A DNA stretch of 64,000 bases from Tethya wilhelma (Eukaryota > Porifera > Demospongiae > Tethyida > Tethyidae): contig CAXIPT010000005.1 in the NCBI GenBank assembly GCA_964030475.1, positions 62,001 to 126,000 on the forward strand, written 5' to 3'. Below are positions 20,629 through 61,956 of this stretch, piece after piece (positions within the stretch are counted from its first letter, which is position 1; each line of letters opens with the position of its first letter). The position numbers and the translations under genes were made by a program. The notes under the pieces are model-generated. The model worked only from the letters and a program-made list of their open reading frames with translations, was not told where the DNA came from and ran no database searches.

Positions 20629-21315
20629 GGATTCCTAGCAGAAAAAGATAAACTACCACTGACCTGTAATCATGTGGTCACTAAAGCCAACTTGAGGACA
20701 TTGTTGAAGGACAGATGTAGAGAGTACTATCGTGGAGCTGAACTACGACAGCACGGGGAAGATAGAGACAACTGTTACAAATATGACAATGGCCGCTTTA
20801 CTCTTCTCTACAAAAACCAGCAGAGTTACCCTCTTCTTGGTCTCCAGCACACCAAGTCCGAGACTCCTCTCCAAGTTGTGCATGACGTTTCAAAGCCGTT
20901 CAATCTGGCAGATGGCTTGGATGTCTTGGAAGCCTATGTTGACAAAAATTTCATCGCAAAGTATCTTTTGTCAAAGAATAGGGACCAAAAGGGCTATGCC
21001 GTCAGTATGGTCTTAAGAGCTCAACAGCCAGAACCAGTGGCTACAAAGTTTGATGTGTATGTAGCTGCCGTTGTATATGAGGGAGAATTCGCAGCGTTTA
21101 CGGGCAAAAGAGAAGAAGATGTGAAATGTAGTTGGAAGCAGGAAGGTTCAGGCAGCACCCAAAAATCTGATACCAAGATTCATGATGACGTTTTTGTTGT
21201 TGAAGGATTGGTACCAAAATCATCTGAAATAGCCTCATATTGGTACTACATTAAAGCAAAGAAAGAGGAAAGGGAGGCGTTTCTAAAGTCTAGAAGACAA
21301 AATCGTGGCAGATGA
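20629..21315 (+). pseudogene. Family-A gene, 5'-truncated by minisatellite
   Basis: From GFLAEKDKLPLTCNH onward the translation is closely similar to the family-A copy at 36897-37932, including YYRGAELRQHGED, LGLQHTKSETPLQVVHD, YVAAVVYEGEF and SSEIASYWYYIKAKK, and it ends at TGA 21313-21315. The first third of the family, including the VRPTI and HIKAHLT blocks, is missing. An in-frame TAG lies just upstream and no ATG is available before the conserved part. The nominal start at 20674 is a GTG. The remaining frame is open for over 210 codons, so the truncation is fairly recent. It lies upstream of a family-B copy, as in the other modules. Confidence 0.85.
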
Positions 21316-22203
21316 AGTGGAATAATGCATGATCAAAAGTGTAACGTACTACATGTACAATTGAACTGGGTTTGAACAATTTACTACTATAGTTTCTTAT
21401 CAATTATTAATTAATGTCAGTCATGAAATTGTCCCTGAGCAATGACAATTAAATTAATTGTAGTTAGATTTAATTTTAGCAGTTTTAAATAATGGTGAAT
21501 GTAGTTATTATAAGACATCCTTGATCATTTGATTAACTACAAGTTGTCAACTTAATATTCCTCAAATAATGATAGATAAAGTGATCAGTATCATGGATTA
21601 CGTGTGGCCAGTCATTCTACGTATGCATTCGTCTAGACTTGTTGGAAATGTACATGTTTACACAAATAATTATCCCTAAGGATTGTCTCAATGAATATTG
21701 ATATATTATATGGTACAAATCACAAAGCACAAATTATGAGAATTATCAAAGGCATGTATAAATTCCTCTAAATCCTGTAATACCAGTTTGCATGGTATTT
21801 CCTCAAGCTCTGTGAATATGATTAACAGGATTATAATATTATACGTATGTGTGTAGATAGAGCTCTTGGGAAATATGGACACGATATACGGCCAACTTAC
21901 CAATAATCACATGACATGCAAGTATACCTGTAAGTACATGTATTGAGTTATCAAAACTTCAACAAGTGGTAAACAGAACCGAGCTAGTACACACCAGTTG
22001 TGGGCTACTAACCAACTAAATCAAGCCCTCTTATATCTCTGACTCATTGATATTAATTAAGGTATACCATTGACAGTTAATTGTGTGTACTTGTGTGTAC
22101 TTGCTACATGACTGATCAAGAAACATTAAAAGTCATTACTTAAGAATTTTAACTTTGTATATTAAAGAAAATAATAAAGAAAATATTATTGTAAGTCTAA
22201 AGC
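21316..22203. other. A-B intergenic spacer
   Basis: Shares blocks with the spacer at 37933-38865 and, inverted, with 58500-59400 and 63300-63500, for example the 'ggccagtcac', 'caaaggcatgt' and 'acatgacatgcaagta' phrases. It belongs to the duplicated module. No gene. Confidence 0.6.
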
Positions 22204-23052
22204 ATGGCAGTAAGATCAGGAAGATCAAGAAGTCCAAGAAGATCTAGAAACTCAATGGAGAGTGTTGACAAAGCATTTTGATCAGCATTACGGTGTTTGT
22301 GATGGTAAATTTTGCCTCTGGGTCGATCGTCAAATCCGACCCACAATCGGTGCCACTGTTAACAAAGATGTTGGGAAAGATTGCACAGCTGTAGGTGATG
22401 ATGTTTTCACTGCAATGCTACAGATCCTGGTTAGTGCCATTGACGATCTGATACCTCGACATCGGGGGGACGTGTACATCACTTTTTCCACAGGGACTTG
22501 GCAAAGATCGAAGGAATTTCACATCAAAGCTCACCTCACTACTGGAGCCTTTCTCTCTCTCCTCGATCAGCTATGCAGGTTGTATTCATTACATAAGCCA
22601 TTGGCAGATCGTCAGTCAAAACAAGAGTTACAGAAACGACAACGAAAGGACCATCATGGTGGACAGCTACTTGAGTTGGTTCAAAAAGAAAATCGTACAG
22701 ATTTGAAACACGAAAAAGGCTTCCACATTGCTACTGTACCTGAGCTAGATTATCCCCTTCTATGTCTCTATGCTACCTCAGCAGATGGAGAGACTATACC
22801 ACAGCCCTACCAGTTACCCAGCTACCAGAAGCTCTAACCATCCTTGAGACGTTTGTTGCTGAGGATTGGGAGCAGAAGGGGTTCTCTATCGCCATGGTCC
22901 CCGCAGCTGCAGCAGCTGGGTCGGAGGGGGTGCTGTGTTACCACGTGGTGGCAAACGTGGAGGAGGGGGAGTTTGCCCCTCGTGTCGGGAAAGACGTGGG
23001 AAGGGTGCAGAGGAGCTGGGGGTGGAGTGAGCCAGAGAGGAGATATCACTGA
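22204..23052 (+). pseudogene. Family-B gene with two frameshifts
   Basis: Starts ATGGCAGTAAGATC with an Arg/Ser-rich N-terminus and ends WGWSEPERRYH at 23052, like the intact B genes at 38866 and 58475. Relative to them, one extra T in the run AAAGCATTTTGATC (about 22277-22280) shifts the frame at residue ~25. A 2-bp insertion (TA) in GAGACTATACC near 22793 restores it about 170 codons later. Between these points the translation is intact and conserved (RQIRPTIGA, GDVYITFSTGTWQRS, HIKAHLTTGAF, DYPLLCLYATSADGE). The only initiator for the middle frame is a GTG. The two insertions sum to 3 bp, which could point to sequencing error or a compensated allele, but both are absent from the paralogues. 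Confidence 0.85.
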
Positions 23053-23664
23053 CTTTTTTTGAGAGAGTGAATAACTGTTTGAGCTCAGTGCATGTGCTTA
23101 CAAAACTGGTCACTATAACTAAAAAGTTTTTCATACTTTAAATTTTGTTACTAGCTCAGTAGTGCGAGATACACAAATTGTCAAGTTTCACAGTCAGTGC
23201 ACAGAAGTATAATTATTTCTATGCTACATACAACCATAAATTTTGCCATAAATACATGAGAGTCTTATTTATACATGGCCACAATGCACAGCCTGACGGT
23301 GACAAATTCATATTTTGGTAGAATTGCTGCCTTGTGTTGTGTTGTCTGTACTATGCTAGCTAGCATCAATAATAATTAGTAACTTACTTGTAACAACTTT
23401 CCACAGAATCTGCAACCCAGTCCGGCTCTTCATTCTTCCCACTAGTGCAGCACCATAGGCCAGGATTGAAATGTGGCCACCTCAGTACTGAAGCCATGAG
23501 TGGCAATTATTGCTGAGTAAGCAAACTTGAACACGTGATCATCTATCTGGCAAACCATTGCATTTCAGCAGAAATCAGAACTGGGCTATCAAGTATGGAA
23601 GAATAAAATACAGGTTTGTTGCATGTTAGCTAGTAGAACATGATACAAAATATATTCTTCACTG

Positions 23665-23703
<39 letters not shown>

Positions 23704-23783
23704 TTCTCCCTAACTGTGTAGATTTAGGTGATGAGAGAGTCTCCAGCTGCTCCAGTGTCCAAGCTGTGACCACCTCTGCTACC
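23053..23783. other. B-to-MFSD1 spacer, duplicated module
   Basis: Matches 39706-40533 and, inverted, 56990-57635 in blocks such as 'gtaacttacttgtaacaact', 'gtggcaattattgctgagta' and 'gcaaacttgaacacgtga'. Contains a (CT)n tract at about 23669-23700. No gene. Confidence 0.6.
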
Positions 23784-23850
23784 ATGAGCCAACATCCACT
23801 GATAGCTGACCCTGCCCAGGAGGAGCAGAGAGAAGGGAACTGTTGTGCAG
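23784..23850 (+). pseudogene. MFSD1 first coding exon, remnant copy
   Basis: ATG 23784 encodes [20 protein letters not shown], close to the first exon of the complete MFSD1 gene (56989-56923), and is followed by the same GTACAGGG donor. The downstream exons expected of an MFSD1 gene are absent except for pieces at 27775 and 28637. It is part of the decayed third module. Confidence 0.75.
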
Positions 23851-23944
23851 GTACAGGGGGTGATGAGTGATGAACCAAGATAGCTGAGAGGCCGTGGTAG
23901 ACACTAGCTAGTACAGAGCCTGTGAGGGGAACTAGTCTAGCCTA

Positions 23945-24135
23945 GCCTGAGGTTCAATAGAGCGGGTGCAATTACGTAAAATGAGTCACTTCCGTATGGC
24001 AAAAATGTACAGAGCAATACGGAGAAACCAGCAGCTGTCATTTACTTCCGTATGGCAAAAATAACTATTTCTAGTATCACTCAAAATACTTCCGGTTTTT
24101 GATGACGTTGATTGCACCCGCTCTATAGAGCAGGT
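23945..24135. mobile_element. ~190-bp MITE with GGGTGCAATTAC ends
   Basis: 'caatagagcgggtgcaatta' on the left and 'attgcacccgctctatag' on the right form inverted ends around a short non-coding interior with 'cttccgtatggcaaaaat'. Related copies lie at 40700-40895 and, inverted, at 56636-56825. Confidence 0.65.
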
Positions 24136-24447: not shown

Positions 24448-24449
24448 AT

Positions 24450-25174: not shown

Positions 25175-27040
25175 TTAGAGTTCTTCTTCTCTGAATGGAT
25201 CTTCACCAGAGTGCCAAGAAACAAACTCAGCCATTTTGATCGGCAGGTACTCACTGTACTCAATCTTGTAATCTACAATAGCACGTGCACTCAAACACTG
25301 AAGAGTGGGAGGGTTGGCTTCAAACGACTCTATCACTTTAAGTATTTCATAAATTACTTCACGATTGGTGGGGTAAATTATGTACGACTCCTCTTTAGCT
25401 GTCCTATTTTGAAAGTTGGCGGCATCAACATGAGCTCCACACTCTAGGAGGGTTCGAACACAGTCCACAGCCACATTGCCAGGGATTCGATGAAGTTGCA
25501 CGGCTAAATGAAGAGGAAAATCCCCATTCTCTCCAACATAGTAGCGACGCTGAAGTGGGCATCCACAATCTAAAAGTAGTGTTAAGAGTTTACAGAGAGA
25601 AAACTCTAACCCCTTATCTGAATCGTCCCACCAAAGTAAGTCATTGATGATTGTTGTATCGCACTCTTCTGTTGCAATAATCAGCTTTTGAACAGCCTTC
25701 TTGATGCGAGCCTGTTCTCTCTCTTGTTCAGTGCTGTCTGTGATATAGTCATCAGCTACTTTGATCCACAGTGCAATCAGTCTTAAAACGGAAGTGACTA
25801 TCGATGCTCTGCAATAAGTGTCATCTTCTTCTTCAACACCTTTCAAGCCATACTGAAAGAAAAGCTGCATACTAGGAACATGCCCATTCTGTAACATCTG
25901 AGCAACAAATTTGACTACTTCTAGAAAACGCTCAGCATATGCATAAAAAATTGTGGAATTTAGTGCAAACTGCAAGTATCTTCCACAGAATTGAACACTC
26001 TTCTTAAAATTTCCATCTATTAAAGTGATTTTAGTGCAATCACGTATCGCATTCATCGTGTGATCATGGCTTTTCCCCAGAATACGCTCCCAGTATATGG
26101 AACGGAGGTAGAATAACCATATCTCATTCTGTGCAATGGACATACACTCCTCCATTGTTGCTGGCTCCTGAACACCATCGTAGATTCGATTTGCTGGAGG
26201 AAGATTGGAAAACAGATCGGGATGAGATGAGCGAACTTGAACAGCCTTATGCATGAAAAGAGTTACCAATTTAGCAGTAGGCCTTCCATATTGACCCTGC
26301 AATGTCATTGCAGTCTGCATACAGTAGACATCATAGAGCTCTCTTGGTCCACATTGGAAGGCCTCGATGAGATATTTCACTAGAGCATTGCTATGGCATT
26401 CCAATGTACCATGTAGTACTACAGACAGACCACTATTATTGAGACTATTCTTAGCACCAGCACTCACTAGAGTCTTGGCTACTTCTAGAGAAGTGGTCAA
26501 ATGAAGTGGAGTATTGCCGGAAGCATCATCATTAGTACAGTTGACATTGGCACCTTTGTCGATCAATAACTGAGTCAAATCTTCGTTCACGATAGCATAA
26601 AACAACATTTGGTCCACTTCTAGGTCAGCACGGTGCACGTGATTAATGAGGTAGAGGGCAACTTCGAATTTACCGCGAAAGAGTGCTTCCCATAATGGAG
26701 AGATGAATTCGTCCTCAATATTAGCTCCTCCTTCCACTAATACTTTCGCACACTCCAAATTTCCACGCCTAGAGGCCAACCACAACGGAGTAATCCGTGG
26801 GTAATACTGTGAATCTTCGTCTCGTGCCTCTTGCTCAATATTCACATTAAAATTGTTCAAGATATACCTGAGGATGTCTGGACGATTTTTCTCAACTGCT
26901 GCTACTAATGGAGACTGTCCTTTGGGCACTTCTTTCATTAGTAGTCGTTCCTTGAAGAGCCGCAGGGAAAGGCCTTTATCATCTAGCAGATCTTTGAATT
27001 CGGCAATTTGGGTCAAACGAGACAGAGTCGAAGCAGACAT
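25175..27040 (-). CDS. FEM1-like ankyrin-repeat CUL2 E3 substrate receptor
   Basis: A single uninterrupted 621-codon frame starting at ATG 27040-27038. The N-terminal half has ankyrin repeats, recognisable at about residues 43-70, 83-110, 114-140 and 150-215 (TPLWLASRRGNLECAKVLVEGGANIE is split over one repeat; TPLHL follows later). The middle has the FEM1-type helical segment around WERILGKSHDHT. Another ankyrin unit (FPLHLAVQ, LLECGAHVDAANFQNRT) precedes a C-terminus TLQCLSARAI..EYLPIKMAEFVSWH, which is the FEM1 VHL-box region that recruits elongin B/C and CUL2. Known FEM1 proteins recognise C-terminal degrons. Length matches FEM1B (about 627). It has no introns, unlike its neighbours, and lies antisense between MFSD1 exon remnants, so a retrocopy origin is possible. 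The ankyrin part is divergent. Confidence 0.85.
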   Translation of the reverse strand: MSASTLSRLTQIAEFKDLLDDKGLSLRLFKERLLMKEVPKGQSPLVAAVEKNRPDILRYILNNFNVNIEQEARDEDSQYYPRITPLWLASRRGNLECAKVLVEGGANIEDEFISPLWEALFRGKFEVALYLINHVHRADLEVDQMLFYAIVNEDLTQLLIDKGANVNCTNDDASGNTPLHLTTSLEVAKTLVSAGAKNSLNNSGLSVVLHGTLECHSNALVKYLIEAFQCGPRELYDVYCMQTAMTLQGQYGRPTAKLVTLFMHKAVQVRSSHPDLFSNLPPANRIYDGVQEPATMEECMSIAQNEIWLFYLRSIYWERILGKSHDHTMNAIRDCTKITLIDGNFKKSVQFCGRYLQFALNSTIFYAYAERFLEVVKFVAQMLQNGHVPSMQLFFQYGLKGVEEEDDTYCRASIVTSVLRLIALWIKVADDYITDSTEQEREQARIKKAVQKLIIATEECDTTIINDLLWWDDSDKGLEFSLCKLLTLLLDCGCPLQRRYYVGENGDFPLHLAVQLHRIPGNVAVDCVRTLLECGAHVDAANFQNRTAKEESYIIYPTNREVIYEILKVIESFEANPPTLQCLSARAIVDYKIEYSEYLPIKMAEFVSWHSGEDPFREEEL

Positions 27041-33671: not shown

Positions 33672-34721
33672 AACGTAAGTATCATCCATTTTTTCACTAG
33701 AGCTGTCTTTCTTGAGATTTCGATGGGACAGACGGATAATATAAAACGACTACCATAATCCTCTGCACGTGCTACACACGCGCCGAGGCTTAATCAGAAG
33801 ACCTGTGTTGAAATTTCCGAATTACAGTGGGTATTGTCATGCAGATTTACGATTTGATCTATGTCTAGAAAACTTTGTCCAAACCGTAACAAAGTGGCTA
33901 ATGTTTTAAAACTCTCATTCCATTGTTTACTACACTATTTGCATACTACATTACTCCAATGTTAACCAACTGATTGCATGGTACGAATTTGAATTAACCA
34001 AAAATTACGAATTGTACAGATCATCATTCGAACTATTTACAACACTGAGTATACCATAATATTATAAGGGATAAAAAACAATTAAAAATAAAAGTAGTCA
34101 TGCATGTACCAAAATTAAGGTATGCCTTAGGTGGTTCCAATACTTTTTCCCGCACTGCCCATTTCTATACTCATTATTTTTACTACTTGTATTCTAATAT
34201 AGAGGTCCATGGAAGTAAGTCAGTAGCACTATATGTATTATATTATATACAACTATGAAAGCAAATATATTTACTGCTATAATGTATACCTATAGACAGC
34301 AGACTATATTATATTTTTTTAAAAGAGGATTAAGTGGTGCCACGTTGACAGAGCATGCATATACCCACATACATGTAATTGAAACAGCCTAGATTTCAGT
34401 GTGGATGCTGAGACCATTCATATTACACTCATGCACATCAATGTCCTTTGAGACAGTTTGCTTCATCTGCATAAGGAAAAGAAAGTTAAAGGAAAACTTC
34501 TTTTGGGAGGGGGGATCTTAAGGAGGGCCAATTTCCTCAGGTCTAATTACATCAGAAAGGAGGAATTAGACTTCATGACTTTTGTAGGTGAAGCCTTGGC
34601 TTTGTATAAATAAGCATGCCAAGTTAGTGAGTGCAGGCATATTATATAGCTATATACGTAGCTCGCCAAGTGAAGACTTTCCCAGCAAAAAGAAAAAGTG
34701 ATCATCAACTCAATTAGTAAA
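33672..34721. other. Spacer with one foldback end, no gene recognised
   Basis: Contains part of a 'GTGTAGGAATGGG' family element at about 34085-34195 ('aaagtagtcatgcatgtacc', 'ttttcccgcactgcccattt'). Otherwise AT-rich DNA upstream of the family-C gene. Confidence 0.5.
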
Positions 34722-35708
34722 ATGGAAGCATCTGCACATGAAGGGCCAATCAATGAGGCGTTTAACACTCACTATAATACTGGTGAATGCCGTCAGTATT
34801 TCAAACTAACCATTGATCGTAAAGTCCGACCAACAGTTCTCGCTGTTGCTGAAAATCCTAAAAGCATATACAAACAAAGTCGTCAAGATCTCAACCATCT
34901 CAACTCAGATCTGCCACAACATTCTGTGTTTAAAGCAATGCTGAAGACTCTCATTGATGCCATCCGTGCTTTAATCCCTGCAGTACATCTGAAAGATGTC
35001 TACCTCACCTTCTCCTGGGGAAATTGGCAGCGGTCAGGTCCTTTCCACATCAAAGCTCACCTCACAACTGATGCTTTTCTCGTCCTTATTAATCAGTTGT
35101 GTGCTAATCATAGCTGCGAAAAGGCTGGTCCGCTTAAGATTGATGCACATAAGAGTGAAGAAAATTTGAAGAAATTGTTGGAAGAAGAATATAAAATTGA
35201 CCACTTTGGAGGAAAGTTACGGCGTCTTGAAGAGCAAAATTTTGCTGAATTGGAGAGCAGTGGGGAATTTCTTATTGGGGTTTGTGAGCTAGACTATCCT
35301 TTGGTCAGTGTTTATAAGCAAAGCAATCAAGCTATCCCCATCGAAAAAATGCCAGCTGCTTTGAATGCCCTCGAGAGGTATGTACAAAATCCTAATACGT
35401 GGAATCAGAAAGGAGGGTCTTTCAGCATGGTTCTAACTGATTCAGGAGTACCCACATGTGTAGCAGCTGTTATCTCGGAAAAAGAGTTTGTTTGCAAAGT
35501 TAACGACACACTTGCTATACTCTCACCTCCAAATTGGAACAAAGTATTCCAAACAGATCAAGTGAAGGAAGATTGGGATTGGAAAAAAGGTTCACACAAA
35601 TGGACAAATCCACCATTTCTTGTGCCTGGTGGAACCTCATCCTCATCCTACCTATTTGCCTATAGCCATGGCCTTGAGGGGAAAGTTGAGGATTTGGTAC
35701 TGAAGTAA
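34722..35708 (+). CDS. Family-C protein (HIKAHLT family), unknown function
   Basis: Intronless 328-codon frame. I chose ATG 34722 (MEASAHEGPINEAF) because the longer frame from 34698 begins with a GTG. It shares the order of conserved blocks with families A and B: a short acidic N-terminus, DRKVRPTVLAVAE at about residue 33, a helical segment VFKAMLKTLIDAI.ALIP, DVYLTFSWGNWQRS, HIKAHLTTDAFLVLINQLC, FGGKLRRLE, ELDYPLVSVYK, GGSFSMVLTD, a VAAVISEKEF block and a Trp-containing C-terminus (EDWDWKKGSHKW). Lengths between blocks differ from A and B, so it is a separate subfamily. No signal peptide or membrane helix is seen, implying a cytosolic or nuclear protein. I recognise no described domain. 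It lies just upstream of the A-B pair. Confidence 0.75.
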   Translation: MEASAHEGPINEAFNTHYNTGECRQYFKLTIDRKVRPTVLAVAENPKSIYKQSRQDLNHLNSDLPQHSVFKAMLKTLIDAIRALIPAVHLKDVYLTFSWGNWQRSGPFHIKAHLTTDAFLVLINQLCANHSCEKAGPLKIDAHKSEENLKKLLEEEYKIDHFGGKLRRLEEQNFAELESSGEFLIGVCELDYPLVSVYKQSNQAIPIEKMPAALNALERYVQNPNTWNQKGGSFSMVLTDSGVPTCVAAVISEKEFVCKVNDTLAILSPPNWNKVFQTDQVKEDWDWKKGSHKWTNPPFLVPGGTSSSSYLFAYSHGLEGKVEDLVLK

Positions 35709-36896
35709 CCTAAGAACTTGGACTGAACACTGTTATAGTAGATAAAATTCAATAAGAAAAGGAACATTAAATTATTATAATTTATTATTGTAAGGCTGTA
35801 GTAAAATTTGAACTGCTAGATTTTCATTTATCTTGGAGTGTATGGTAGTTTGTGTACGGTGTGTATGTAGGTAGACAATAAATGGTTGTTTCTGTGTACG
35901 TGGGTAGAGTTTCTTTGATTTTTTTGATTGATTTTCAGAATCTGGTCTTAATGAATTTGATTTACAAGTAGTAGTACATGTTTAGAATCACTCGTAAATG
36001 ATTTCTATATAAACAAGATGATTATAATTAGTATTATTATAACATAAAACCAAATAAGCACAAAAACTACAGTACATATATTTATAGAGCAGAGAAAAAG
36101 AATGATATATATGCGTTATATCTTGCAACACTATTATTATTACTGAGATTTTCCAATTGTGACAACAATTATCATATTATTGCATGAATAAGGTAGAGCT
36201 AATTGGCACAACAAGGTCATTGTATATTGTATTGTAGAGTGACAATTTTAAAATATGACTGATCTAATATGGACATCCTATAAATAATATTATGCTAAAT
36301 TGCCACATGCAAAGGAAATTGTAATAATTCAAGCTGACTATGGGTAATCATGCAGTAGAAAGCAGTCTCTTGACCATGCATCAACACCCTGAAACGTACT
36401 AATTCCAACCAACAATTTATAAGGATATCCTTGTTCTTCTTGGGGCTGTCCCACAACTAGCTGGGTTGAAATTATTGGACCTGCTCTCACTGTACAACCA
36501 AGATGTATGGCACCTAGCTTGCAGCTAATTCCATGAAAATTGTGGTGTACTTGGAGACAGCAGGCTATGTCTATCTTAAGGAAGATGAAGGCAAAAGCAG
36601 CTATAGCTCCTCTGAATGGACCATCATACCACATAATAATATCACCTAGAAGAAGGAATATTAACTTCACATTCAGTGCCATTCCCTGTGTGAAAGGAGG
36701 AAACATAATATAGTTTAAGATTTTGATGCATGGCTTCTATAGATCTGAACATGATAGTCCTGGTTATAAAAATGCACTGAGCTGGGTTGTCAGTGCACAA
36801 AAACAGCTTTGTACCAGATTATTCTACAGCTCACCAATTTGAAGCAAACAAAATAATCAAGTGTTCTCAATCTTTCTCAAGTAAACGGCATTAGCA
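35709..36896. other. Spacer with duplicated upstream flank of family A
   Basis: 36340-36710 is the inverted counterpart of about 62060-62410, sharing 'ggtatgatggtccattcag', 'gctgcttttgccttcatctt' and 'aggatatc'. It marks the outer end of the mirrored arms. The open frame at 36338-36706 (minus) is not conserved as a protein in the partner, so I do not call it a gene. Confidence 0.55.
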
Positions 36897-37932
36897 ATGG
36901 AGAAACCTTCAAACAACAAATTAGCAATATGTGAAGTACTAAATGAGATCTACAACAAAGAACAAAAGGCTTTCACCCTCACACTCGATCGTACGTAAAG
37001 TACGCCCCACGATAGTTGCTGTCGCCAACGATAGCACAAACCACACGGATCGGGATAAAGTGGGACCTGTCCTCTTCACTCAAATGGTACAGTCTCTTAT
37101 TAACACCGTCGATAAGCTCATACCTGGTCATCGAAGGGATGTCTATACATCACGTACTCCAAAGGGACGTGGCAGCAAACTGCATGGTGCATTGCACATC
37201 AAGGCACATCTTACTGCCGATGCCTTTCTTGAGCTGCTAAAGAAGCTCTACGGATTCCTAGCAGAAAAAGATAAACTACCACTGACCTGTAATCACGTGG
37301 TCACTGAAGCCAACTTGAGGACATTGCTGATGGAAAGGTGTAGAAAATACTATCGTGGAGCTGAACTACGACAGCACGGTGAAGATGAAGACAACTGTTA
37401 CAAATACGATGATGCCCGCTTTACTCTTCTCTACAAAAACCAGCAGAGTTATCCTCCTCTAGGCCTCCAGCACACCAAGTCTGAGACTCCTCTTCAAGTT
37501 GTGCATGACGATAAAAAGCCGTTCAATCTGATAGATGGCTTGCAGGTCTTGGAGACTTATGTTGACAAAAAATTTATCAATACTTGTTCATCACCGAACA
37601 GGGACACTGAGGGCTATGCTATTAGTATGGTCTTAAGAGCTCAAAATCCAGAACCTGCTACAAAGTTTAACATGTATGTAGCTGCCGTTGTATATGAAGG
37701 AGCATTTGCTACATTTACGGACAAAAATGAAAAAGATGTGACAAGCAGTTGGAAGCAGGAAGGTTCAGGCAGTACACAACCATTTGATACCAAAATTCAC
37801 GATGACATTTTTGTTGTCGAAGGATCAGAGACAAAATCATCCGAAATAGCCTCATATTGGCATTACATTAAAGCAAAGAAAGACGAAAGGGAGGCGTACA
37901 TAAGGTCTAGAAGACAACATCGTGGCAAATGA
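36897..37932 (+). pseudogene. Family-A gene, frameshifted near the N-terminus
   Basis: ATG 36897 encodes MEKPSNNKLAICEVLNEIYN and continues to TLTLDR, matching the intact A gene at 61956 (MAESSKPKLEICEALNKMCN). A 4-bp ACGT duplication in CGTACGTAAAGTACG then breaks the frame and would terminate it at TAA. The remaining frame (from 36943 if an internal ATG is used, 329 codons) resumes exactly at KVRPTIVAVAN. Two further insertions, TA near 37145 and CATG near 37183, shift about 14 codons out of frame and back, so VYITYSKG is lost but GALHIKAHLTADAFLELL is kept. The rest is conserved to the stop at 37932. The protein could still be made from the internal ATG with an altered N-terminus. Calling it dead is an inference. 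Confidence 0.75.
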
Positions 37933-38865
37933 AGTGCAACGCTGATCCGAAAGTGTAACATATACCATGTATATGTACAACTGAACTGAGTTTGAACAAT
38001 TTACTATTACAGTTTCGTATCTATTATTAGTCTGACAGTCAATTGTCCCTGAGCAATGACAAGTTGTAATTAGATCACTAATAATCATTAATTTTAGCAG
38101 TTTTTCATAATAATGAATGTAATTATAACAGAACCTTAATCGTTTGATTAACTACAACTTAATATTCCTTGGAAAATAATGGTTAAAGTGATCAGTATTA
38201 TAGGTCACATGTGGCCAGTCACTCTATGCATGCATTCACCTGTGAACGTCTTAATGAGCTAGCTGTGCAATATGAGGCTTGTTGGAAATGCATGCTTACA
38301 TAAATTAATAATTATCCTAAAACATTGGAAGATCACTTGATTGCTGTGTGCTAAGGGATTGGAAGATTAATAGATTGATGTGTGCTAATGTTTACACAGA
38401 TAAGAATTGCCTCAATGAATATTGATATATAATATGGTATAAATCACAGAGTACAGATTAGGAGAATTATCAAAGGCATGTGAAAATTCCTCTAAACCCT
38501 GTAATACCAGTTGGTAATTCCTTGAGCTCTATGAATATGATTAAAAAGACCATATACGTGTGTAGATAAAGTTCTTGGGAAATATGGTCACGATATTATA
38601 TGTACGATGGACTAACTAAAAATCACATGACATGCAAGTATGCACGTGTAAGTATAATGTATTGAGTTGTCAAAACTTCAAGAATTTAAGTGGTACACAG
38701 AACTGAGCTATTAAATCAAGCTTAATTATATCTCTGACTCATTGGTATTAAGGTATACCATTGACAGCTAGTTGTGTGTACTTACTACAAGATTGATCAA
38801 GAATCATTGCAAATCATTACTTTTTAACTCCATACATTAAAAATTTATATTGTAAGCCTAAACCC
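37933..38865. other. A-B intergenic spacer
   Basis: Module spacer shared with 21316-22203 and, inverted, with 58476-59400. About 45 bp before the B start codon lies 'tttttaactccatacattaa', conserved in all three modules; it may be core promoter or 5' UTR. No gene. Confidence 0.5.
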
Positions 38866-39705
38866 ATGGCAGGAAGATCAAGGAGTCCAAGAAGATCTAG
38901 AAACCCAATGGAGAGCATCGACAAAGCATTTGATCAACACTACGGTGTTCGTGATGGAAAATTTTACCTCTGGGTTGATCATCAAATCCGACCCACAATT
39001 GGTGCTTCAGCTAAGAGGGGTGTTGGGAGAGATCGCACAGCTGTAGGTGATGCTGTTTTCACTGCCATGCTACAGACCCTGGTTAGTGCCATTGATAAGC
39101 TGATACCTCAACATCGTGGGGACGTGTACATCACTTTCTCCACTGGAAGCTGGCAACGTTCGAGAGAGTTCCACATCAAAGCTCACCTCACTACTGAAGC
39201 CTTTCTTTCTCTCGTCGATCAGCTATGCAGGTTGCATTCGTTGGGACGTAATCCGTTGGCAGATCTTCAGTCAAAAGAAGAGTTGGAGAAGCGACAACAA
39301 AAGGACCATCATGGTGGACAGCTACTTGCGTTGGTTCGAAACGAAAACCGCACTGATTTGAAACGTGAAAAAGGCTTCCACATTGCCACTGTAGCAGATC
39401 TAGACTATCCCCTTCTTTGTCTCTATGCTACCTCAGCAGATGGAAATACTACCACAGCAATACCAGCTTCCCAGCTACCAGCAGCGCTAACCATCCTTGA
39501 GACATTTGTTGCTAAGGATTGGGAGCAGAAGGGGTTCTCTATTGCCATGGTCCCCGCGGCTGCAACAGCTGGGTCAGAGGGAGTGACCTGTTACCATGTG
39601 GTGGCAAACGTGGAGGAGGGGGAGTTTGCCTCTCGTGTCGGGAAAGACGTGGGAAGGGTGCAGAGGAGCTGGGGGTGGAGTGAGCCAGAGAGGAGATATC
39701 ACTGA
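38866..39705 (+). CDS. Family-B protein (HIKAHLT family), intact
   Basis: Intronless 279-codon frame from ATG 38866. The N-terminus GRSRSPRRSRNP is a short Arg/Ser stretch like an RS-type or nuclear-targeting segment. Blocks in order: DHQIRPTIGASAK (about residue 38), VFTAMLQTLVSAIDKLIPQH, GDVYITFSTGSWQRS, HIKAHLTTEAFLSLVDQLC, DHHGGQLLALV, FHIATVADLDYPLLCLYAT, a PAALTILETFV helix, GFSIAMVPAAA, and the C-terminal VVANVEEGEFASRVGKDVG..WGWSEPERRYH. It differs from the inverted copy at 57636-58475 by eight residues by eye. No transmembrane or secretion signal. Function unknown. The Arg/Ser N-terminus makes a nuclear or RNA-associated role possible, but that is a guess. It follows an A gene, as in every module. 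Confidence 0.8.
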   Translation: MAGRSRSPRRSRNPMESIDKAFDQHYGVRDGKFYLWVDHQIRPTIGASAKRGVGRDRTAVGDAVFTAMLQTLVSAIDKLIPQHRGDVYITFSTGSWQRSREFHIKAHLTTEAFLSLVDQLCRLHSLGRNPLADLQSKEELEKRQQKDHHGGQLLALVRNENRTDLKREKGFHIATVADLDYPLLCLYATSADGNTTTAIPASQLPAALTILETFVAKDWEQKGFSIAMVPAAATAGSEGVTCYHVVANVEEGEFASRVGKDVGRVQRSWGWSEPERRYH

Positions 39706-40380
39706 CTTTTTTGAGAGAGTGAAAATTAAACATGGCAGCTAGTGCCTGATAAGACGTGACTGTTTGAGCTCAGTGGATGTGCTTATGAAATTTATTTAAT
39801 TAAAATTTGGTCAGCACAACTAATAATTAACTTAATAATTATTTAGTTCAAGTGTGCAGTCTTTCATACCTCAAAATTAATTGTTACTAGTCTACAAGAT
39901 ACACAATATGTCAAGTTTTATAGTTAGTGCACAGAAGTAAAATTATTTCTATAGCTACAACCATAAATTTTGCCATAAATACATGAAAGTCCTTTTAATT
40001 GTAGCATGGATATACATGGCTGCAATGTACAGGGACAAATTAAGTTTAGTAGAATTGCTGCATGCCCTACAATGTCTGTAGTAAGCTAGCATCAATAATG
40101 ATTAGTAACTTACTTGTAACAACTTTCCACAGAAACTGCAACCCCGTCTGTCTCTTCATTCTTCCCAGTAGAGCAGCACCATATAGCCCATGATTGTAAT
40201 GTGGTCAGTGGCTGTGGTCACCTTGTTCCATGAAGCCATGTGTGGCAATTATTGCTGAGTAAGCAAACTTGAACACGTGATTTCTCATAATTTTGGCCAA
40301 ATTTCAGAAAACAGTTATGGAAGACAAAAGCACGGGTTTGTTGCATACCAGCTAGTAGAACACGATTCAGAATATATTCT

Positions 40381-40458
<78 letters not shown>

Positions 40459-40533
40459 CATGTAGATTTAGATGATGAAAGTACTCCAGCTGCCCAGAGG
40501 CCCAGTGTTCAAGCTGTGGCCACCACTGCCACC
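39706..40533. other. Spacer with long (CT)n tract
   Basis: Module spacer between B and the MFSD1 exon 1 copy. Contains a (CT)n microsatellite at about 40383-40453, absent from the inverted partner at 57060, where the flanks join directly. No gene. Confidence 0.7.
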
Positions 40534-40956
40534 ATGAGCCAACATCCACTGATAGCAGACACTGCTGAGGGGGAGGAGAGAGTGGGGAACTGCTGTGTAG
40601 GTACAGGGTGTGATGAGTGATGAACCAAGTTTAATAATAGCTGAGAGACACTAGTACCTTTCTTTGCCTGTGAGGGACTAGTCTAGCCTCTATCCCGAGG
40701 CTCAATAGAGTGGGTGCAATTACATATCAACAAGAAAATTAAAACCAGGAATATTTTGTGCAGTGATACTGTATGTAAATGGTCATTATTTGCTATACAG
40801 AAGTAAATGATCGACAGCTGCCCATTTCTCTGTACCACTGCTGTACATTTGCCATACATACAGAAGCTATTTGATTGCACCCACTCTTGTCTATTATGAG
40901 TGATAAAAATTTGAGTATCTCCAGATATCCATCTCTAGCATTCTCCTTATGACACT

Positions 40957-41015
<59 letters not shown>

Positions 41016-41134
41016 TAGATCCGAGGGCAGGCTGTTGTTATCGTGCCCAGATGTACCTGCTGATCGGTCTCCTCAGTGTGGGTACCTACTACGTCTACGC
41101 CATTCCAGCTTCACTGCAGAAGACCATCATTACT
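40534..41134 (+). pseudogene. MFSD1 exons 1 and 2, left-arm pseudogene
   Basis: Exon 1 (40534-40600, [20 protein letters not shown]) and exon 2 (41019-41134, [20 protein letters not shown] then [19 protein letters not shown]) have the same sizes, phases and splice sites as in the complete gene at 56989-56393. Exons 3-5 and 7-10 are missing from this arm, and exon 6 reappears at 44341. It is therefore a broken copy, although these two exons are undamaged. Confidence 0.85.
40700..40895. mobile_element. ~190-bp MITE with GGGTGCAATTAC ends, left-arm copy
   Basis: 'tcaatagagtgggtgcaatt' and 'attgcacccactcttgtct' form the ends. The same element is in the same intron of the complete MFSD1 gene (56636-56825), so it predates the inverted duplication. 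Confidence 0.65.
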
Positions 41135-41223
41135 GTGAGTTGATTGGAGGGGCTGATGTAATCATGTGATCGCCATACTAGGTTTCATTTGGGGGAAGAG
41201 GGAGGGGGCACAGGAAGGCATTT

Positions 41224-41632
41224 GGATACAGTTCACAGTTCATGGTACACAGTATACAGTTCACAGTATGCAGTATGCAGTACGCAGTATACAGTACGCA
41301 GTACGCAGTATGCAGTACGCAGTACGCAGTACGCAGTTCACAGTTCGCAGTATGCAGTTCGCAGTATGCAGTTCACAGTACGTAGTATGCAGTTCACAGT
41401 TCACAGTATGCAGTACGCAGTATGCAGTTCGCAGTACGCAGTATGCAGTTCGCAGTATGCAGTTCACAGTACGTAGTATGCAGTTCACAGTTCACAGTAT
41501 GCAGTACGCAGTATACAGTTCACAGTACGCAGTATACAGTACGCAGTACGCAGTATGCAGTATGCAGTACGCAGTACGCAGTATACAGTAATACAGTAAT
41601 ACTGTATACAGTGTACAGTGCACAGTTCCGGT
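41224..41632. repeat. Heptamer VNTR (CAGTAYG/CAGTTCA), left arm
   Basis: Tandem 7-bp units CAGTATG, CAGTACG, CAGTTCA and CAGTATA. Because 7 is not a multiple of 3 and the unit has no stop in any register, all three frames stay open, giving spurious 'protein' repeats. It lies in MFSD1 intron 2 and is followed by a ~100-bp unique block and a (CA)n tract (41706-41778). It has an apparently identical inverted copy at 55893-56303. Confidence 0.92.
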
Positions 41633-41709
41633 ATATTAAAACTATTACTGTTATTACATTGCAAAGACTAGCCTTACTTCCTGCTAATTTAGAAAATCCG
41701 GTCCAAACA

Positions 41710-41778
<69 letters not shown>

Positions 41779-44274: not shown

Positions 44275-44325
<51 letters not shown>

Positions 44326-44639: not shown

Positions 44640-44641
44640 GC

Positions 44642-44680
<39 letters not shown>

Positions 44681-45852: not shown

Positions 45853-45909
45853 NNNNNNNNNNNNNNNNNNNNNNNNNNNNNNNNNNNNNNNNNNNNNNNN
45901 NNNNNNNNN

Positions 45910-55760: not shown

Positions 55761-55817
<57 letters not shown>

Positions 55818-56511
55818 TGTTTGGACCGGATTTTCTAAATTAGCAGGAAGTAAGGCTAGTCTTTGCAATGTAATAACAGTAATAGTTTTAATATACCGGA
55901 ACTGTGCACTGTACACTGTATACAGTATTACTGTATTACTGTATACTGCGTACTGCGTACTGCATACTGCATACTGCGTACTGCGTACTGTATACTGCGT
56001 ACTGTGAACTGTATACTGCGTACTGCATACTGTGAACTGTGAACTGCATACTACGTACTGTGAACTGCATACTGCGAACTGCATACTGCGTACTGCGAAC
56101 TGCATACTGCGTACTGCATACTGTGAACTGTGAACTGCATACTACGTACTGTGAACTGCATACTGCGAACTGCATACTGCGAACTGTGAACTGCGTACTG
56201 CGTACTGCGTACTGCATACTGCGTACTGCGTACTGTATACTGCGTACTGCATACTGCATACTGTGAACTGTATACTGTGTACCATGAACTGTGAACTGTA
56301 TCCAAATGCCTTCCTGTGCCCCCTCCCTCTTCCCCCAAATGAAACCTAGTATGGCGATCACATGATTACATCAGCCCCTCCAATCAACTCACAGTAATGA
56401 TGGTCTTCTGCAGTGAAGCTGGAATGGCGTAGACGTAGTAGGTACCCACACTGAGGAGACCGATCAGCAGGTACATCTGGGCACGATAACAACAGCCTGC
56501 CCTCGGATCTA

Positions 56512-56563
<52 letters not shown>

Positions 56564-56989
56564 GAGAGTGTCATAAGGAGAATGCTAGAGATGGATATCT
56601 GGAGATACTCAAATTTTTATCACTCATAATAGACAAGAGTGGGTGCAATCAAATAGCTTCTGTATGTATGGCAAATGTACAGCAGTGGTACAGAGAAATG
56701 GGCAGCTGTCGATCATTTACTTCTGTATAGCAAATAATGACCATTTACATACAGTATCACTGCACAAAATATTCCTGGTTTTAATTTTCTTGTTGATATG
56801 TAATTGCACCCACTCTATTGAGCCTCGGGATAGAGGCTAGACTAGTCCCTCACAGGCAAAGAAAGGTACTAGTGTCTCTCAGCTATTATTAAACTTGGTT
56901 CATCACTCATCACACCCTGTACCTACACAGCAGTTCCCCACTCTCTCCTCCCCCTCAGCAGTGTCTGCTATCAGTGGATGTTGGCTCAT
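52665..56989 (-). CDS. MFSD1: MFSD1-type lysosomal MFS transporter, complete
   Basis: Ten coding exons (56989-56923, 56508-56393, 55749-55526, 55172-55064, 54768-54669, 54527-54314, 53763-53624, 53388-53205, 53130-53003, 52831-52665) join in frame to 483 codons with stop, close to animal MFSD1 (about 465 residues). Family landmarks in order: [115 protein letters not shown] and [12 protein letters not shown]. About twelve membrane segments are expected. Known MFSD1 works with GLMP in lysosomes and exports dipeptides. A short cytosolic N-terminus has Leu-Ile at residues 6-7, a weak sorting candidate lacking the usual upstream acid. Introns hold microsatellites, the heptamer VNTR and degenerate minisatellite units. 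Two or more broken copies lie elsewhere in the window. Confidence 0.9.
53399..53474. repeat. (GA)n microsatellite in MFSD1 intron 7
   Basis: Simple GA tract with one undetermined base at 53427, directly next to the acceptor of exon 8. Other MFSD1 introns carry (GT)n at 54531-54570, (CA)n at 55484-55519, (GT)n at 55761-55814 and (CA)n at 56515-56562. Confidence 0.95.
53905..53970. repeat. Degenerate minisatellite units in MFSD1 intron 6
   Basis: 'gatgttaggatcttggtttc' followed by 'tcatcactttttgatggt' and 'ctaggttctttagttcttg' resembles two worn units of the 17.8-20.6 kb minisatellite. The core palindrome is mutated. Confidence 0.6.
55893..56303. repeat. Heptamer VNTR, right arm
   Basis: Inverted counterpart of 41224-41632 in intron 2 of the complete MFSD1 gene. 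The translated repeats of the two arrays agree over about 140 codons, so the arrays have the same number and order of unit variants. The accompanying unique block and CA tract are also shared. Confidence 0.92.
56636..56825. mobile_element. ~190-bp MITE with GGGTGCAATTAC ends, right-arm copy
   Basis: Inverted copy of 40700-40895 in MFSD1 intron 1. Shared insertion in both arms. Confidence 0.65.
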
Positions 56990-57635
56990 GGTGGCAGTGG
57001 TGGCCACAGCTTGAACACTGGGCCTCTGGGCAGCTGGAGTACTTTCATCATCTAAATCTACATGTACTAAATCACGTGTTCAAGTTTGCTTACTCAGCAA
57101 TAATTGCCACACATGGCTTCATGGAAATTATAAGGTGACCACATTACAATCATGGGCTATATATGGTGCTGCTCTACTGGGAAGAATGAAGAGCCAGACT
57201 GGGTAGCAGTTTCTGTGGAAAGTTGTTACAAGTAAGTTACTAATCATTATTGATGCTAGCATACTACAGACATTGTAGGGCATGCAGCAATTCTACTAAA
57301 CTTTGTCCCTGTACATTGCAGCCATGTATATCCATGCTACAATTAAAAGGACTTTCATGTATTTATGGCAAAATTTATGGTTGTAGCTATAGAAATAATT
57401 TTACTTCTGTGCACTAACTGTAAAACTTGACAAGTTGTGCATCTTGTAGACTAGTAACAATTAATTTTGAGGTAAGAAAGACTGCAAACTTGAACTAAAT
57501 TATTAAGTTAATTATTTTAGTTATGCTGACCAAACTTTAATTAAATAAATTTCATAAGCACATCCACTGAGCTCAAACAGTCACGTCTTATCAGGCACTA
57601 GCTGCCATGTTTAATTTTCACTCTCTCAAAAAAAG

Positions 57636-58475
57636 TCAGTGATACCTCCTCTCTGGTTCACTCCACCCCCAGCTCCTCTGCACCCTTCCCACGTCTTTCC
57701 CGACACGAGAGGCAAACTCCCCCTCCTCCACATTTGCCACCACGTGGTAACACAGTACCCCCTCCGACCCAGCTGTTGCTGCCGCGGGGACCATTGCAAT
57801 AGAGAACCCCTTCTGCTCCCAATCCTCAGCAACAAACGTCTCAAGGATGGTTAGCGCTGCTGGTAGCTGGGAAGCTGGTATGGCTGTGGTAGTCTCTCCA
57901 TCTGCTGAGGTAGCATAGAGACATAGAAGGGGATAGTCTAGATCTGCTACAGTGGCAATGTGGAAGCCTTTTTCGCGTTTCAAATCAGTGCGGTTTTCGT
58001 TTCGAACCAACGCAAGTAGCTGTCCACCATGATGGTCCTTTCGTTGTCGCTTCTCCAACTCTTGTTTTGACTGAAGATCTGCCAATGGGTTACGTCCCAA
58101 CGAATGCAACCTGCATAGCTGATCGAGGAGGGAGAGAAAGGCTTCAGTGGTGAGGTGAGCTTTGATGTGGAACTCTCTCGAACGTTGCCAGCTTCCAGTG
58201 GAGAAAGTGATGTACACGTCACCGCGATGTTGAGGTATCAGCTTATCAATGGCACTAACCAGGGTCTGTAGCATGGCAGTGAAAACAGCATCACCTACAG
58301 CTGTGCGATCTCTCCCAATGCCCCTCTTAGCTGAAGCACCAATTGTGGGTCGGATTTGACGATCAACCCAGAGGTAAAATTTTCCATCACGAACACCGTA
58401 GTGTTGATCAAATGCTTTGTCGATACTCTCCATTGGGTTTCTAGATCTTCTCGGACTCCTTGATCTTCCTGCCAT
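57636..58475 (-). CDS. Family-B protein (HIKAHLT family), intact inverted copy
   Basis: Intronless 279-codon frame from ATG 58475-58473, the same length as the copy at 38866-39705. By eye eight residues differ: His/Arg and Val/Ile in the VRPTI region, Val/Leu in the HIKAHLT helix, Glu/Gln and Gln/Arg in the charged linker, Asn/Glu, Lys/Glu and Thr/Leu in the C-terminal half. Several of these are radical changes despite very similar DNA, which is unusual for a gene under strong constraint and would suit diversifying selection or relaxed constraint. The Arg/Ser N-terminus, GSWQRS and the C-terminal WGWSEPERRYH are identical. It lies between MFSD1 and family A on the same strand, mirroring the left arm. 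Confidence 0.8.
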   Translation of the reverse strand: MAGRSRSPRRSRNPMESIDKAFDQHYGVRDGKFYLWVDRQIRPTIGASAKRGIGRDRTAVGDAVFTAMLQTLVSAIDKLIPQHRGDVYITFSTGSWQRSREFHIKAHLTTEAFLSLLDQLCRLHSLGRNPLADLQSKQELEKRQRKDHHGGQLLALVRNENRTDLKREKGFHIATVADLDYPLLCLYATSADGETTTAIPASQLPAALTILETFVAEDWEQKGFSIAMVPAAATAGSEGVLCYHVVANVEEGEFASRVGKDVGRVQRSWGWSEPERRYH

Positions 58476-60559
58476 GGGTTTAGGCTTACAATATACTTTT
58501 TTAATGTATGAAGTTAAAAAGTAATGATTTGCAATGATTCTTGATCAATCTTGTAGTAAGTACACACAACTAGCTGTCAATGGTATACCTTGATATCAAT
58601 GAGTCTGAGATATAATTAAGCTTGATTTAGTTGGTTAATAGCTCAGTTCTAGCTGTGTACCACTTCTTGAAGTTTTGATAACTCAATACATTATACTTAC
58701 ACGTGCATACTTGCATGTCATGTGATTTTTAGTTAGTCCGTCATACGTATAATAAAAATATAGATATCTATATAGATATCTATATAGATATCGTGACCAT
58801 ATTTCCCAAGAACCTTATCTACACACATATGTGGTCCCGTTAATCATATTCATAGAGCTCAAGGAATTACCAACTGGTATTACAGGATTTAGAGAATTTT
58901 CACATGCCTTTGATAATTCTCCTAATCTGTACTCTGTGATTGATACCATATTATATATCAATATTCATTGAGACAGGATAATTATTGTGTAAATATTTCC
59001 GACAAGTCATGACTGGTCACATGTTACCTATAATACTAATCACTTCATTCATCATTTTCAGAGGAACATTAAGTTGTAATTACATTCACCATTATAAAAA
59101 AGCTGCTAACATTTTTGGTGGTGTCCCTATCAAAAATTTTGGACAATTGATTTGGAATTCCTTAGGCTTAGTCTTTGTACACCAAAATGATCCTTTCACT
59201 GAGATATGTTCAAAAATCATACTTTAAAAAACAAATGGGTTTAATTTCTGATTTTATATTCCTTCTTGAGTCCCCTTTCAGTCTATTTATCTTTCAATCT
59301 TTTATATAGCACACAGCAATCAATTAATCTTTCATCTCTTAGGATAATTATTTAAGTCTCATATTGCATAGCTAGCTCGTTAAGACGTTAACATGTGAAT
59401 TTATGCATAGGGTGACTGGCCACATGCAACCTATCTCTCCTTTGACCTTTCAGTTGTACCCACACCTCTAGATCTTCTTCCTTATCCTTTGAAGAGGGAG
59501 GGGCCTGGGGATGAAGCTAGTATAATTACACCACTGTGAAAAACTGCTTAAGTTAATTAATGATTATTAGTAATCCCCTCATGGTTCATAGACAATTAAA
59601 CCACAAAACTATACTGTAATTATTCAAACTTGGTTCAGTTGTGCAGTACTATTATATAGATTATTGTGAAGTGGAAAACCACTATAATACCATGTGGGGT
59701 TTCATCTAGGCCTTGATAGATTGTGCCAGCATATAATTTCGAGCATATAGTAGGTACTCTTGAGCATCAAGAATTATGCTAGCATAATAGGCTGAATTTT
59801 GTGACCATTCCAGCATAATAGGCTGGTATTTTGTTGGAATAACAGCACCTAACTGGAGTGAATGCCTGCCACAGTAGACAGTCTCAGCAGTCACAGTATT
59901 GTCTGTTACACATTCTTTAGTGTTCTTTTGATGAAGCAGGTTAACTCACAAAGTGTGAATTAACTAGTATAACTACAGAAACGCATAACTATTATAATGG
60001 TCTTTCAATTTGTTCCTACTTCCGCTCATTAAAAATAATAATTTCTGCGACATATTATTTGGTAGTAATAAGCATAATAGACAACTTGAGAATCATAACA
60101 GGCAGATTTTGGAACATAATTGGGCCATTCTTTGAGCGTAAAGAAAGAAAAACAGGCAGAGTCTTTTGATCATAAAAGAAAAGAAAAAATAGGCAGAGTC
60201 TTGAGCATAATCCATCAAGGCCTAATATCATATGTTGTATGTCGTATGTTGCATGTCGCATGTCGTATGTTGTATGTCGCATGTTGTATGTTGTATGCCG
60301 TATGTCGCATGTCGTATGTCGCATGTCACATGTCGCATGTCGCATGTCGCATGTCGCATGTCGCATGTCGCATGTTGCATGTTGGTAGGTATTTGGTAGA
60401 AATAAGCATAATAGTCAACTTGAGAAGCATAATAGGCAGATTTTGGAGCATAATTGGGCCATTCTTTGAGCATATATAAAAGAAAAGAAAAATAGGCAGA
60501 GTCTTGAGCATAATCTATAGCTATCAAGGCCTAGTTTCATCTGCCAGGATTTTGCGTGC
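58476..60559. other. B-A spacer with heptamer array and flanking repeat
   Basis: Contains a 'tagatatctata' tandem palindrome at about 58759-58790, module-shared blocks to about 59400, and a ~120-bp direct repeat (60058-60232 and 60391-60535, with 'tgggccattctttgagc') flanking a 7-bp VNTR. The open frame at 58985-59227 has no recognisable similarity. Confidence 0.55.
60232..60385. repeat. Heptamer VNTR (ATGTCGC/ATGTTGT)
   Basis: About 22 units of 7 bp, 'atgtcgc', 'atgttgt', 'atgtcgt' and 'atgttgc'. Stop-free in all frames, giving spurious RHATCDM-type open frames on both strands. Unrelated in sequence to the CAGTAYG heptamers but with the same unit length. Confidence 0.9.
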
Positions 60560-60566
60560 AGATCAT

Positions 60567-60680
60567 CCTATTCCTTTTTTTTTACTTCAATGTAATACCA
60601 ATATGAGGCTACTGCATGCAGATGATTTCTCTGGGCCTTTAACAAGAAATTATATGAATTTTGGTATCAAATATAGGCAC
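60567..60680 (-). pseudogene. Family-A C-terminal fragment
   Basis: 'cttcaatgtaataccaatat' followed by 'gaggctactgca' and 'gatgatttctctgggccttt' repeats, with mutations and small insertions, the part of the adjacent A gene at about 60963-61065 that encodes IASYWYYIEAK and its upstream block. It is a short local duplicate, non-functional. Confidence 0.7.
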
Positions 60681-60879
60681 ATGTGATTTCTATTGCTGAC
60701 AGTGTACATTATCTTTATTTAATTAATTTCTGAGTATAATGGATCGAAAATAAACTAACACAATCAGAAACAACTATGCTAATAATCTGCTTGTAACATT
60801 ACTTCACGGCTTATACACAATTAACTGATTATCAGACTATAAAATTAATCACAAAGCTATTGTTCAAACTCGATCAGTT

Positions 60880-61956
60880 CTAACGTTTGAGTGGTCCTCT
60901 GCTAAAACTCGTCTGGTACTTGGCCTTCTTGGACAGCCATGCTTCTCTTTCCTTTTTCTTTGCTTCAATGTAATACCAATATGAGGCTATTGCAGATGAT
61001 TTTGTCTCTGAGCCTTTGACACGAAAATCGTCATCATGAATTTTGGTCTCAAATTTTTGTGTACTTTTTGAGCTTTCTTGCTTCCAGCTGCTTCTCACTT
61101 TATCTTCGTCCTTACCTGAAAATGTTGCAAATTCTCCCTCGTATACAACGGCAGCTACATACACATTAAACTTTGTAGTGATGTCGGGTTTCGGAGTTTC
61201 ATCTCTAAGAACCATACTAATGGCAAAACCCTTTTTCTCCTTATTCTGCTTTGTATCTGGCAGACCAGCATATTTTTTAACAAAGTTGTCGTAAACGTAC
61301 GTTTCCAAGAGATGCAAACCATCTGCCAGATTAATCGGCTTCTTTGAAGTATCAAAGTCATGCAGAACTTTGAGAGGATTCTCAGACTTAGTATGCTGGA
61401 GGCCTAGAAGAGGGTAACTCAGCTTTGTTTTGTAGAAAAGGGAAAAGTGGCTGTCATCAAATTTGTAACAGTTGTCTTTCTCCTTCCCGTGCTCTCGTAG
61501 TTCAGCTCCACGATAATACTCTCCAGATCTTGTAGTCAACAATGCCTTCACATTATCTTCAGTTTTATCATGATCACATGTCAGTTCGAATCTTTCCTCA
61601 GGTTTTAGAGATCTGTAGAGCCCCTTAAGCAGCTCAATAAAGGCATCGGCAGTAAGATGAGCTTTGATGTGCAATGCACCAGTTTGCTGCCATCCTCCTT
61701 TAGAGTACGTGATGTAGACGTTCCCTCGATGCTCAGGTATGAGCATATCGACAGTGTTAATAAGAGTCTGTACCATTTCAGTGAAGAGTGCAGGTCCCAC
61801 GTCTTGACGATCTTGCTTTTGACTATTGTTAGCAACAGCAACTATTGTGGGTCGTACTTTACGATCGAGTGCAAGGGTGAAATCCTCCTGGTTTTTGTTG
61901 CACATCTTGTTTAGTGCTTCACAGATTTCCAGCTTGGGTTTTGAAGATTCGGCCAT
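60880..61956 (-). CDS. Family-A protein (HIKAHLT family), intact
   Basis: Intronless 358-codon frame from ATG 61956-61954, the only undamaged A gene in the window. Order of blocks: acidic N-terminus with KLEICEALNKMCN, LALDRKVRPTIVAVANN (about residue 30), ALFTEMVQTLINTVDMLIPEH, GNVYITYSKGGWQQTG, ALHIKAHLTADAFIELLKGL, a charged linker, EYYRGAELREHGKEKDNCYK, SYPLLGLQHTKSENPLKVLH, a helix DGLHLLETYV, GFAISMVLRDE, FNVYVAAVVYEGEFATFSG, a SSWKQE motif, IHDDDF, and a C-terminus ASYWYYIEAKKKEREAW with a basic end. It aligns throughout with B and C but carries an extra YYRGAEL/LGLQHTK section. No signal peptide or membrane helix. No recognised domain. It shares its upstream flank with the A copy at 36897. 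Confidence 0.8.
   Translation of the reverse strand: MAESSKPKLEICEALNKMCNKNQEDFTLALDRKVRPTIVAVANNSQKQDRQDVGPALFTEMVQTLINTVDMLIPEHRGNVYITYSKGGWQQTGALHIKAHLTADAFIELLKGLYRSLKPEERFELTCDHDKTEDNVKALLTTRSGEYYRGAELREHGKEKDNCYKFDDSHFSLFYKTKLSYPLLGLQHTKSENPLKVLHDFDTSKKPINLADGLHLLETYVYDNFVKKYAGLPDTKQNKEKKGFAISMVLRDETPKPDITTKFNVYVAAVVYEGEFATFSGKDEDKVRSSWKQESSKSTQKFETKIHDDDFRVKGSETKSSAIASYWYYIEAKKKEREAWLSKKAKYQTSFSRGPLKR

Follow-up and report, generated by a model that had tools for sequence, protein, structure and literature searches.

We analysed a 64,000-nucleotide stretch of the Tethya wilhelma genome (C5:62001-126000, C5 and C6 being contigs; called the window below), which carries a family of single-exon genes of three types, A, B and C. 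The assembly (124.6 Mb, 204 contigs) was queried with five family proteins; three of the five queries recovered all nine family loci and the other two recovered eight. Six loci are intact (A, B1, B2, C, C2 and C6). Eight of the nine, three of them decayed, are clustered within about 45 kb on C5 in three modules. Two intact members lie outside the window, C2 just past its end and a B-like gene on C6. The loci, and a tenth scrap, are as follows.

20629..21315, + strand: A-type fragment of module 1, about 104 N-terminal residues gone, adjoining a satellite
22204..23052, + strand: B-type pseudogene of module 1, at least 2 frame breaks
34722..35708, + strand: C gene of module 2, intact, 328 amino acids (aa)
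36897..37932, + strand: broken A-type gene of module 2, three frame-changing insertions
38866..39705, + strand: B1 gene of module 2, intact, 279 aa
57636..58475, - strand: B2 gene of module 3, intact, 279 aa
60553..60651, - strand: remnant of an A C-terminus (the tenth scrap, ~33 codons), protein match E 0.071
60880..61956, - strand: A gene of module 3, intact, 358 aa
65152-66093 (window-equivalent; 1.2-2.1 kb past the window end), - strand: C2 gene of module 3, intact
C6:6232847-6233758, - strand: solitary B-like gene of C6, intact, 304 aa

All eight pieces that an earlier note on this DNA had counted are present; however, only four are intact, three being degraded and one a remnant. Module 3 has C, A and B intact, module 2 has intact C and B with a broken A, and module 1 is decayed. 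The note had described an A-B cassette. A does precede B in all three modules, but with the C gene of module 3 (C2), which lies past the window end, the full unit is C-A-B.

The C, A and B genes are real. The intact members in the window are ATG-initiated open reading frames (ORFs) of 279, 279, 328 and 358 aa, against a longest random ORF of 188 aa (mean 123) in 50 first-order-Markov windows of 64 kb. The ORFs are uninterrupted and a TATA box stands 113-132 bp upstream of the ATG of the A and C genes, in keeping with the proposal that the genes would lack introns. Nei-Gojobori counts with a Fisher test revealed purifying selection on both pairs of intact copies. Between B1 and B2, synonymous differences numbered 23.8 at 204 sites and non-synonymous differences 10.2 at 634, a ratio of non-synonymous to synonymous rates (dN/dS) of 0.13 (p 8e-9). 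The corresponding values for C and C2 were 83.9 at 202 and 214.1 at 724 (dN/dS 0.62, p 0.0017). In no 55-codon bin did dN exceed dS (0/6 for C/C2, 0/5 for B1/B2). Ratios against degraded copies were 0.46 for A and the broken A, 0.42 for A and the A fragment, and 0.37 and 0.62 for B1 and two pieces of the B pseudogene. The selection signal that the note had asked for is thus present, and its picture of birth and death agrees with the tandem duplication, the decayed copies and the purifying selection in two copy pairs.

The degraded copies are damaged in different ways. The piece at 20629 aligns to A from residue 105 onward only and therefore lacks VRPTI, GxWQ and HIKAHLT; a satellite flanks it directly. 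This long satellite, with units TTAGGTTCTTGGGTTCTCATCACATGTGATGG, occupies 17430-20605, directly upstream of the truncated copy. In the B pseudogene at 22204, MAVRSGRSRSPRRSRNSMESVDKAF is followed by a stop, and the remainder lies in two other open pieces. Compared with A at 61956, the copy at 36897 carries insertions of +4, +2 and +4 bp plus one in-frame +3, all within ~290 bp of its ATG; the frame-changing insertions scramble the GxWQ block, and a separate out-of-frame protein match is present there. With these three pieces truncated or broken, the statement that all members share the blocks was wrong; they are kept in the intact genes. The Arg/Ser stretch ascribed to the start of B was seen in B1, B2 and the B pseudogene but is absent from the B-like gene of C6.

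Promoters and copying of the C-A-B block

Self-comparison covered 92.5 kb, including sequence past the window end. Within it, GAAAGGAGGAAW occurs exactly four times, once upstream of each of C, the broken A, A and C2, always on the strand of its gene and at 167, 205, 186 and 140 bp, respectively, from the ATG. The TATA box of C2 is at -113; those of the other three genes are listed here.

34555..34566, + strand: GAAAGGAGGAAT upstream of C, TATA box at -117
36692..36703, + strand: GAAAGGAGGAAA upstream of the broken A, TATA box at -132
62131..62142, - strand: GAAAGGAGGAAA upstream of A, TATA box at -127

If one mismatch is permitted, 4 matches are found in the window where 0.56 are expected, and 0 of 100 shuffles reached 4; the fourth match, at 44423, is without a family gene. 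Neither GAAAGGAGGAAW nor its TATA pattern was found within 300 bp upstream of B1, B2, the B pseudogene or C6. The shared upstream flanks of A and C would fit the duplication of one gene together with its promoter.

The self-comparison matched 20629-21630 with 37252-38237 (83% identity), 21677-23071 with 38401-39723 (83%) and 23125-23975 with 39858-40723 (77%). Inverted matches joined 36494-37895 to 62307-60941 (75%), 38594-40283 to 58754-57069 (94%) and 40456-41766 to 57067-55761 (99.6%). The segment that links modules 2 and 3 extends beyond the family genes.

38387..41766, + strand: module 2 segment reaching into an MFS-like gene, inverted copy at 55761-58997, 92-99.6% identity
55761..58997, - strand: module 3 counterpart of this segment, from the DNA self-comparison

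Because the similarity runs through intergenic DNA and promoters, the C-A-B block was copied as DNA segments that include intergenic DNA, and not as retrocopies. A retrogene family was rejected on the same grounds, the copies having kept the flanks of their source. The relationship between the modules changes within module 2. In 200-bp bins from 37200 to 38000, module 2 was closer to module 1 in 5 of 5 (82-84% vs 57-78%), and from 38400 to 40600 it was closer to module 3 in all 12 comparable bins (85-100% vs 74-97%), which places a step in identity at 38.2-38.4 kb. A single N lies at 41779, in a CA repeat, 13 bp beyond the module 2 copied segment. Another, at window-equivalent position 81872, immediately precedes a further near-identical copy: 44123-45262 and window-equivalent 81873-83000 are 98.9% identical. 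The assembly gaps in the window comprise 100 Ns at 12996-13095, 57 Ns at 45853-45909 and single Ns at 12520, 41779 and 53427.

Relatives, conserved blocks and domain searches

Relatives were sought by profile among 5.8 billion proteins, a set whose sponge share is not established. A 5-member profile found two proteins, P0001 and P0002, and a 10-member profile found P0002 alone; no A-type relative was found in this set. These only relatives are encoded on ENA contigs of 1.29 and 2.08 Mb and belong to the same family, P0001 being B-like and P0002 C-like. In an 11-row tree, P0001 grouped with B (support 97/96; 73% identity) and P0002 with C (81/83, which is not strong; 45% identity). C6, on a long branch, was placed with B (88/89); A was set apart (100/100). 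Given these placements, at least the B and C lines arose before the lineage of this genome parted from that of the organism or organisms carrying those contigs. Searches of IMG/VR, GTDB genomes and phage records found no homologues. The string HIKAHLT was not found in the literature searched, and the portions of the sponge and orphan-gene literature available to us contained no paper on such a family. The paralogues are clustered with decayed copies among them, as in a lineage-restricted tandem family, and the proposal of a lineage-specific family is plausible.

Across eight proteins (the six intact genes, P0001 and P0002), G.WQ, H[IL]KAHLT and [SD]YPL are present in 8 of 8, and [IV]RPT[IV] in all 7 that extend that far. 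The strictly kept RPT, GxWQ and HxKAHLT are most easily read as a ligand-binding or active site. None of the eight has a hydrophobic segment (maximum 19-residue Kyte-Doolittle mean 1.54), and the family proteins are therefore not surface receptors themselves. The intact copies look like genuine, selected, soluble cellular proteins.

The note had known no described domain with these blocks, and nothing was recognised in the libraries that we searched. Pfam gave no match at cut-off for five window proteins or ten family members, nor did NCBIfam for four proteins; PADLOC matched 0 of 4. In PHROGs, searched with ten members, five families were each matched by a single member, and the best match (a phage tail-assembly-chaperone, E 6.6e-4) was taken for chance. 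Seven queries of PDB sequences returned four weak titles, none of which recurred between queries.

Neighbouring genes and repeats

An exon reading MSQHPLIAD lies 3' of B in all three modules and is the first exon of the MFS-like transporter gene. In module 3, the open frames that follow it have sub-cut-off matches to MFS_1 (E 3e-7 and 0.004). Within the 92.5 kb, one frame is confined to module 3; 54 residues of the other recur at 44394-44555 and at window-equivalent 82132-82293. Module 1 is flanked at 14.7-16.0 kb by a membrane-protein-like gene; an inverted copy of it, at 67.2-68.4 kb, neighbours C2 and module 3, and the two share 81-86% DNA identity. The note had the family co-duplicating with receptors; this gene does accompany modules 1 and 3, but "receptor" was a judgement by eye and its sole Pfam match is sub-threshold.

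Several other features were recorded. Between modules 1 and 2, the minus strand encodes a 621-aa single-exon ankyrin-repeat protein (25175-27040). An AT-rich tandem array at 29953-33573 contains two head-to-tail copies of a 1082-bp unit (29953-31034 and 31036-32117), a pair that is 100% identical and either very recent or an assembly duplicate. The open frame at 42778-43200 resembles the N-terminal part of a Helitron-type helicase by eye and has no Pfam match. Two receptor-like exons at 48777-50728 are inverted relative to each other (88% identity), and an adjoining frame has a sub-cut-off fn3 match. A cysteine-protease family search of the genome gave 89 matches; among the 30 loci examined, one (L059) carries QGDCGASYAFSAMGALEGA, which we take to be a silicatein-type active site.

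Interpretation and comparison with known systems

On balance, we consider it probable that the genes form a narrowly distributed single-exon family of soluble intracellular proteins of ~280-360 aa, arranged in a tandem C-A-B block next to an MFS-like transporter gene. Copying of the block as DNA segments left one complete module, one with a broken A and one decayed, and the identity step inside module 2 may stem from gene conversion or from a second, partial round of copying. The proteins would be active in the nucleus or cytosol, where a single conserved cluster of polar residues (RPT, GxWQ and HxKAHLT) may bind or process a small, probably phosphorylated, ligand. A, B and C would be paralogues with related jobs, not halves of one machine. 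The two-component A-plus-B system put forward in the earlier note is not supported, as A is intact in one of three modules, the B-like gene on C6 is solitary and C belongs to the unit.

Several points weigh against this interpretation. The C/C2 ratio of 0.62 indicates modest constraint only, and the promoter common to the A and C genes is missing from the B genes and C6. The single Ns at two copy boundaries (41779 and 81872) mean that an assembly join may account for part of the inverted near-identity and for the identity step. The narrow distribution depends on how well the protein set covers sponges. The ligand step draws on conservation, and the family is known here from its sequence.

We also weighed other explanations. 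It is unlikely that the family supplies immune or recognition effectors and has been maintained together with the neighbouring membrane-protein gene. The duplication of the block with that gene beside modules 1 and 3, the birth and loss of copies and the common promoter of A and C are all consistent with such a role; however, PADLOC matched none of the four proteins, all 6 C/C2 bins and all 5 B1/B2 bins were without dN > dS, and no such membrane gene was seen at the C6 locus, which shared the family gene itself and nothing more. That the proteins derive from a mobile element or an integrated virus is very improbable. Nine loci in 124.6 Mb, eight of them in one array, are few for this origin, the copied segments include the MFS-like exon and intergenic DNA, and no relatives were found in IMG/VR, phage records or GTDB genomes. 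These observations outweigh the intronless ORFs, the nearby satellites, a sub-cut-off integrase-core fragment at 11.1-11.4 kb and the one member in ten that matches the phage tail-assembly-chaperone profile.

The conserved cluster was also compared with the active site of histidine-triad (HIT) proteins, and a divergent HIT nucleotide hydrolase or transferase, in which the second triad His has become Lys (HxKxH), was considered. The DRKxRP strand, a helix, a strand, GxWQ and HxKAHLT would fill the HIT layout, the order of elements is similar by eye, and the best of the profile alignments keeps this layout in register. One report gives the HIT motif as HxHxHxx, where x is hydrophobic (PMC7157772). 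The defining second His is missing from the family, in which H[IL]KAHLT has Lys at this position in 8 of 8 proteins. A profile of 120 HIT proteins (of 160 found) reached E 0.21 with the N-terminal part and 0.39 with the whole, and the decoy made from the reversed HIT alignment scored better (0.064 and 0.13). Two single sponge HIT proteins gave E 0.76 and 0.61, and PF11969 and PF01230 did not match any of ten family members. The HIT-like HxKxH active site is thus unsupported by profile comparison, and we regard this relationship as distinctly unlikely. A still bolder proposal is highly unlikely: a novel family of demosponge enzymes whose active site is HxKAHLT/RPT/GxWQ, possibly in a HIT-like fold with Lys in the triad, and whose A and C genes would be co-activated through GAAAGGAGGAA-TATA in a locus that, with its membrane-protein and transporter genes, would sense, import and process one class of small molecule.

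The soluble-protein family that we favour stands at present as a well-documented orphan family and is no great surprise. As a selected protein family without a recognised domain, it adds to the sponge genes that remain unexplained. The locus also offers a compact example of block duplication, decay, a step in inter-copy identity and a promoter common to two subfamilies. If the conserved cluster is an active site, the proteins would represent an enzyme family absent from present profile libraries.

Two known systems invite comparison. HIT proteins (HINT, FHIT and aprataxin) are alike in having a His-x-(x)-x-His strand and a loosely similar order of elements, but they carry HxHxH where the family has HxKxH, and there is no profile support for kinship. 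Compared with lineage-restricted birth-and-death tandem families, the present family differs in its lack of a recognised domain, its single exon and the promoter common to two of three subfamilies; it is like them in its clustered paralogues, segmental copies, pseudogenes and uneven identity between copies.

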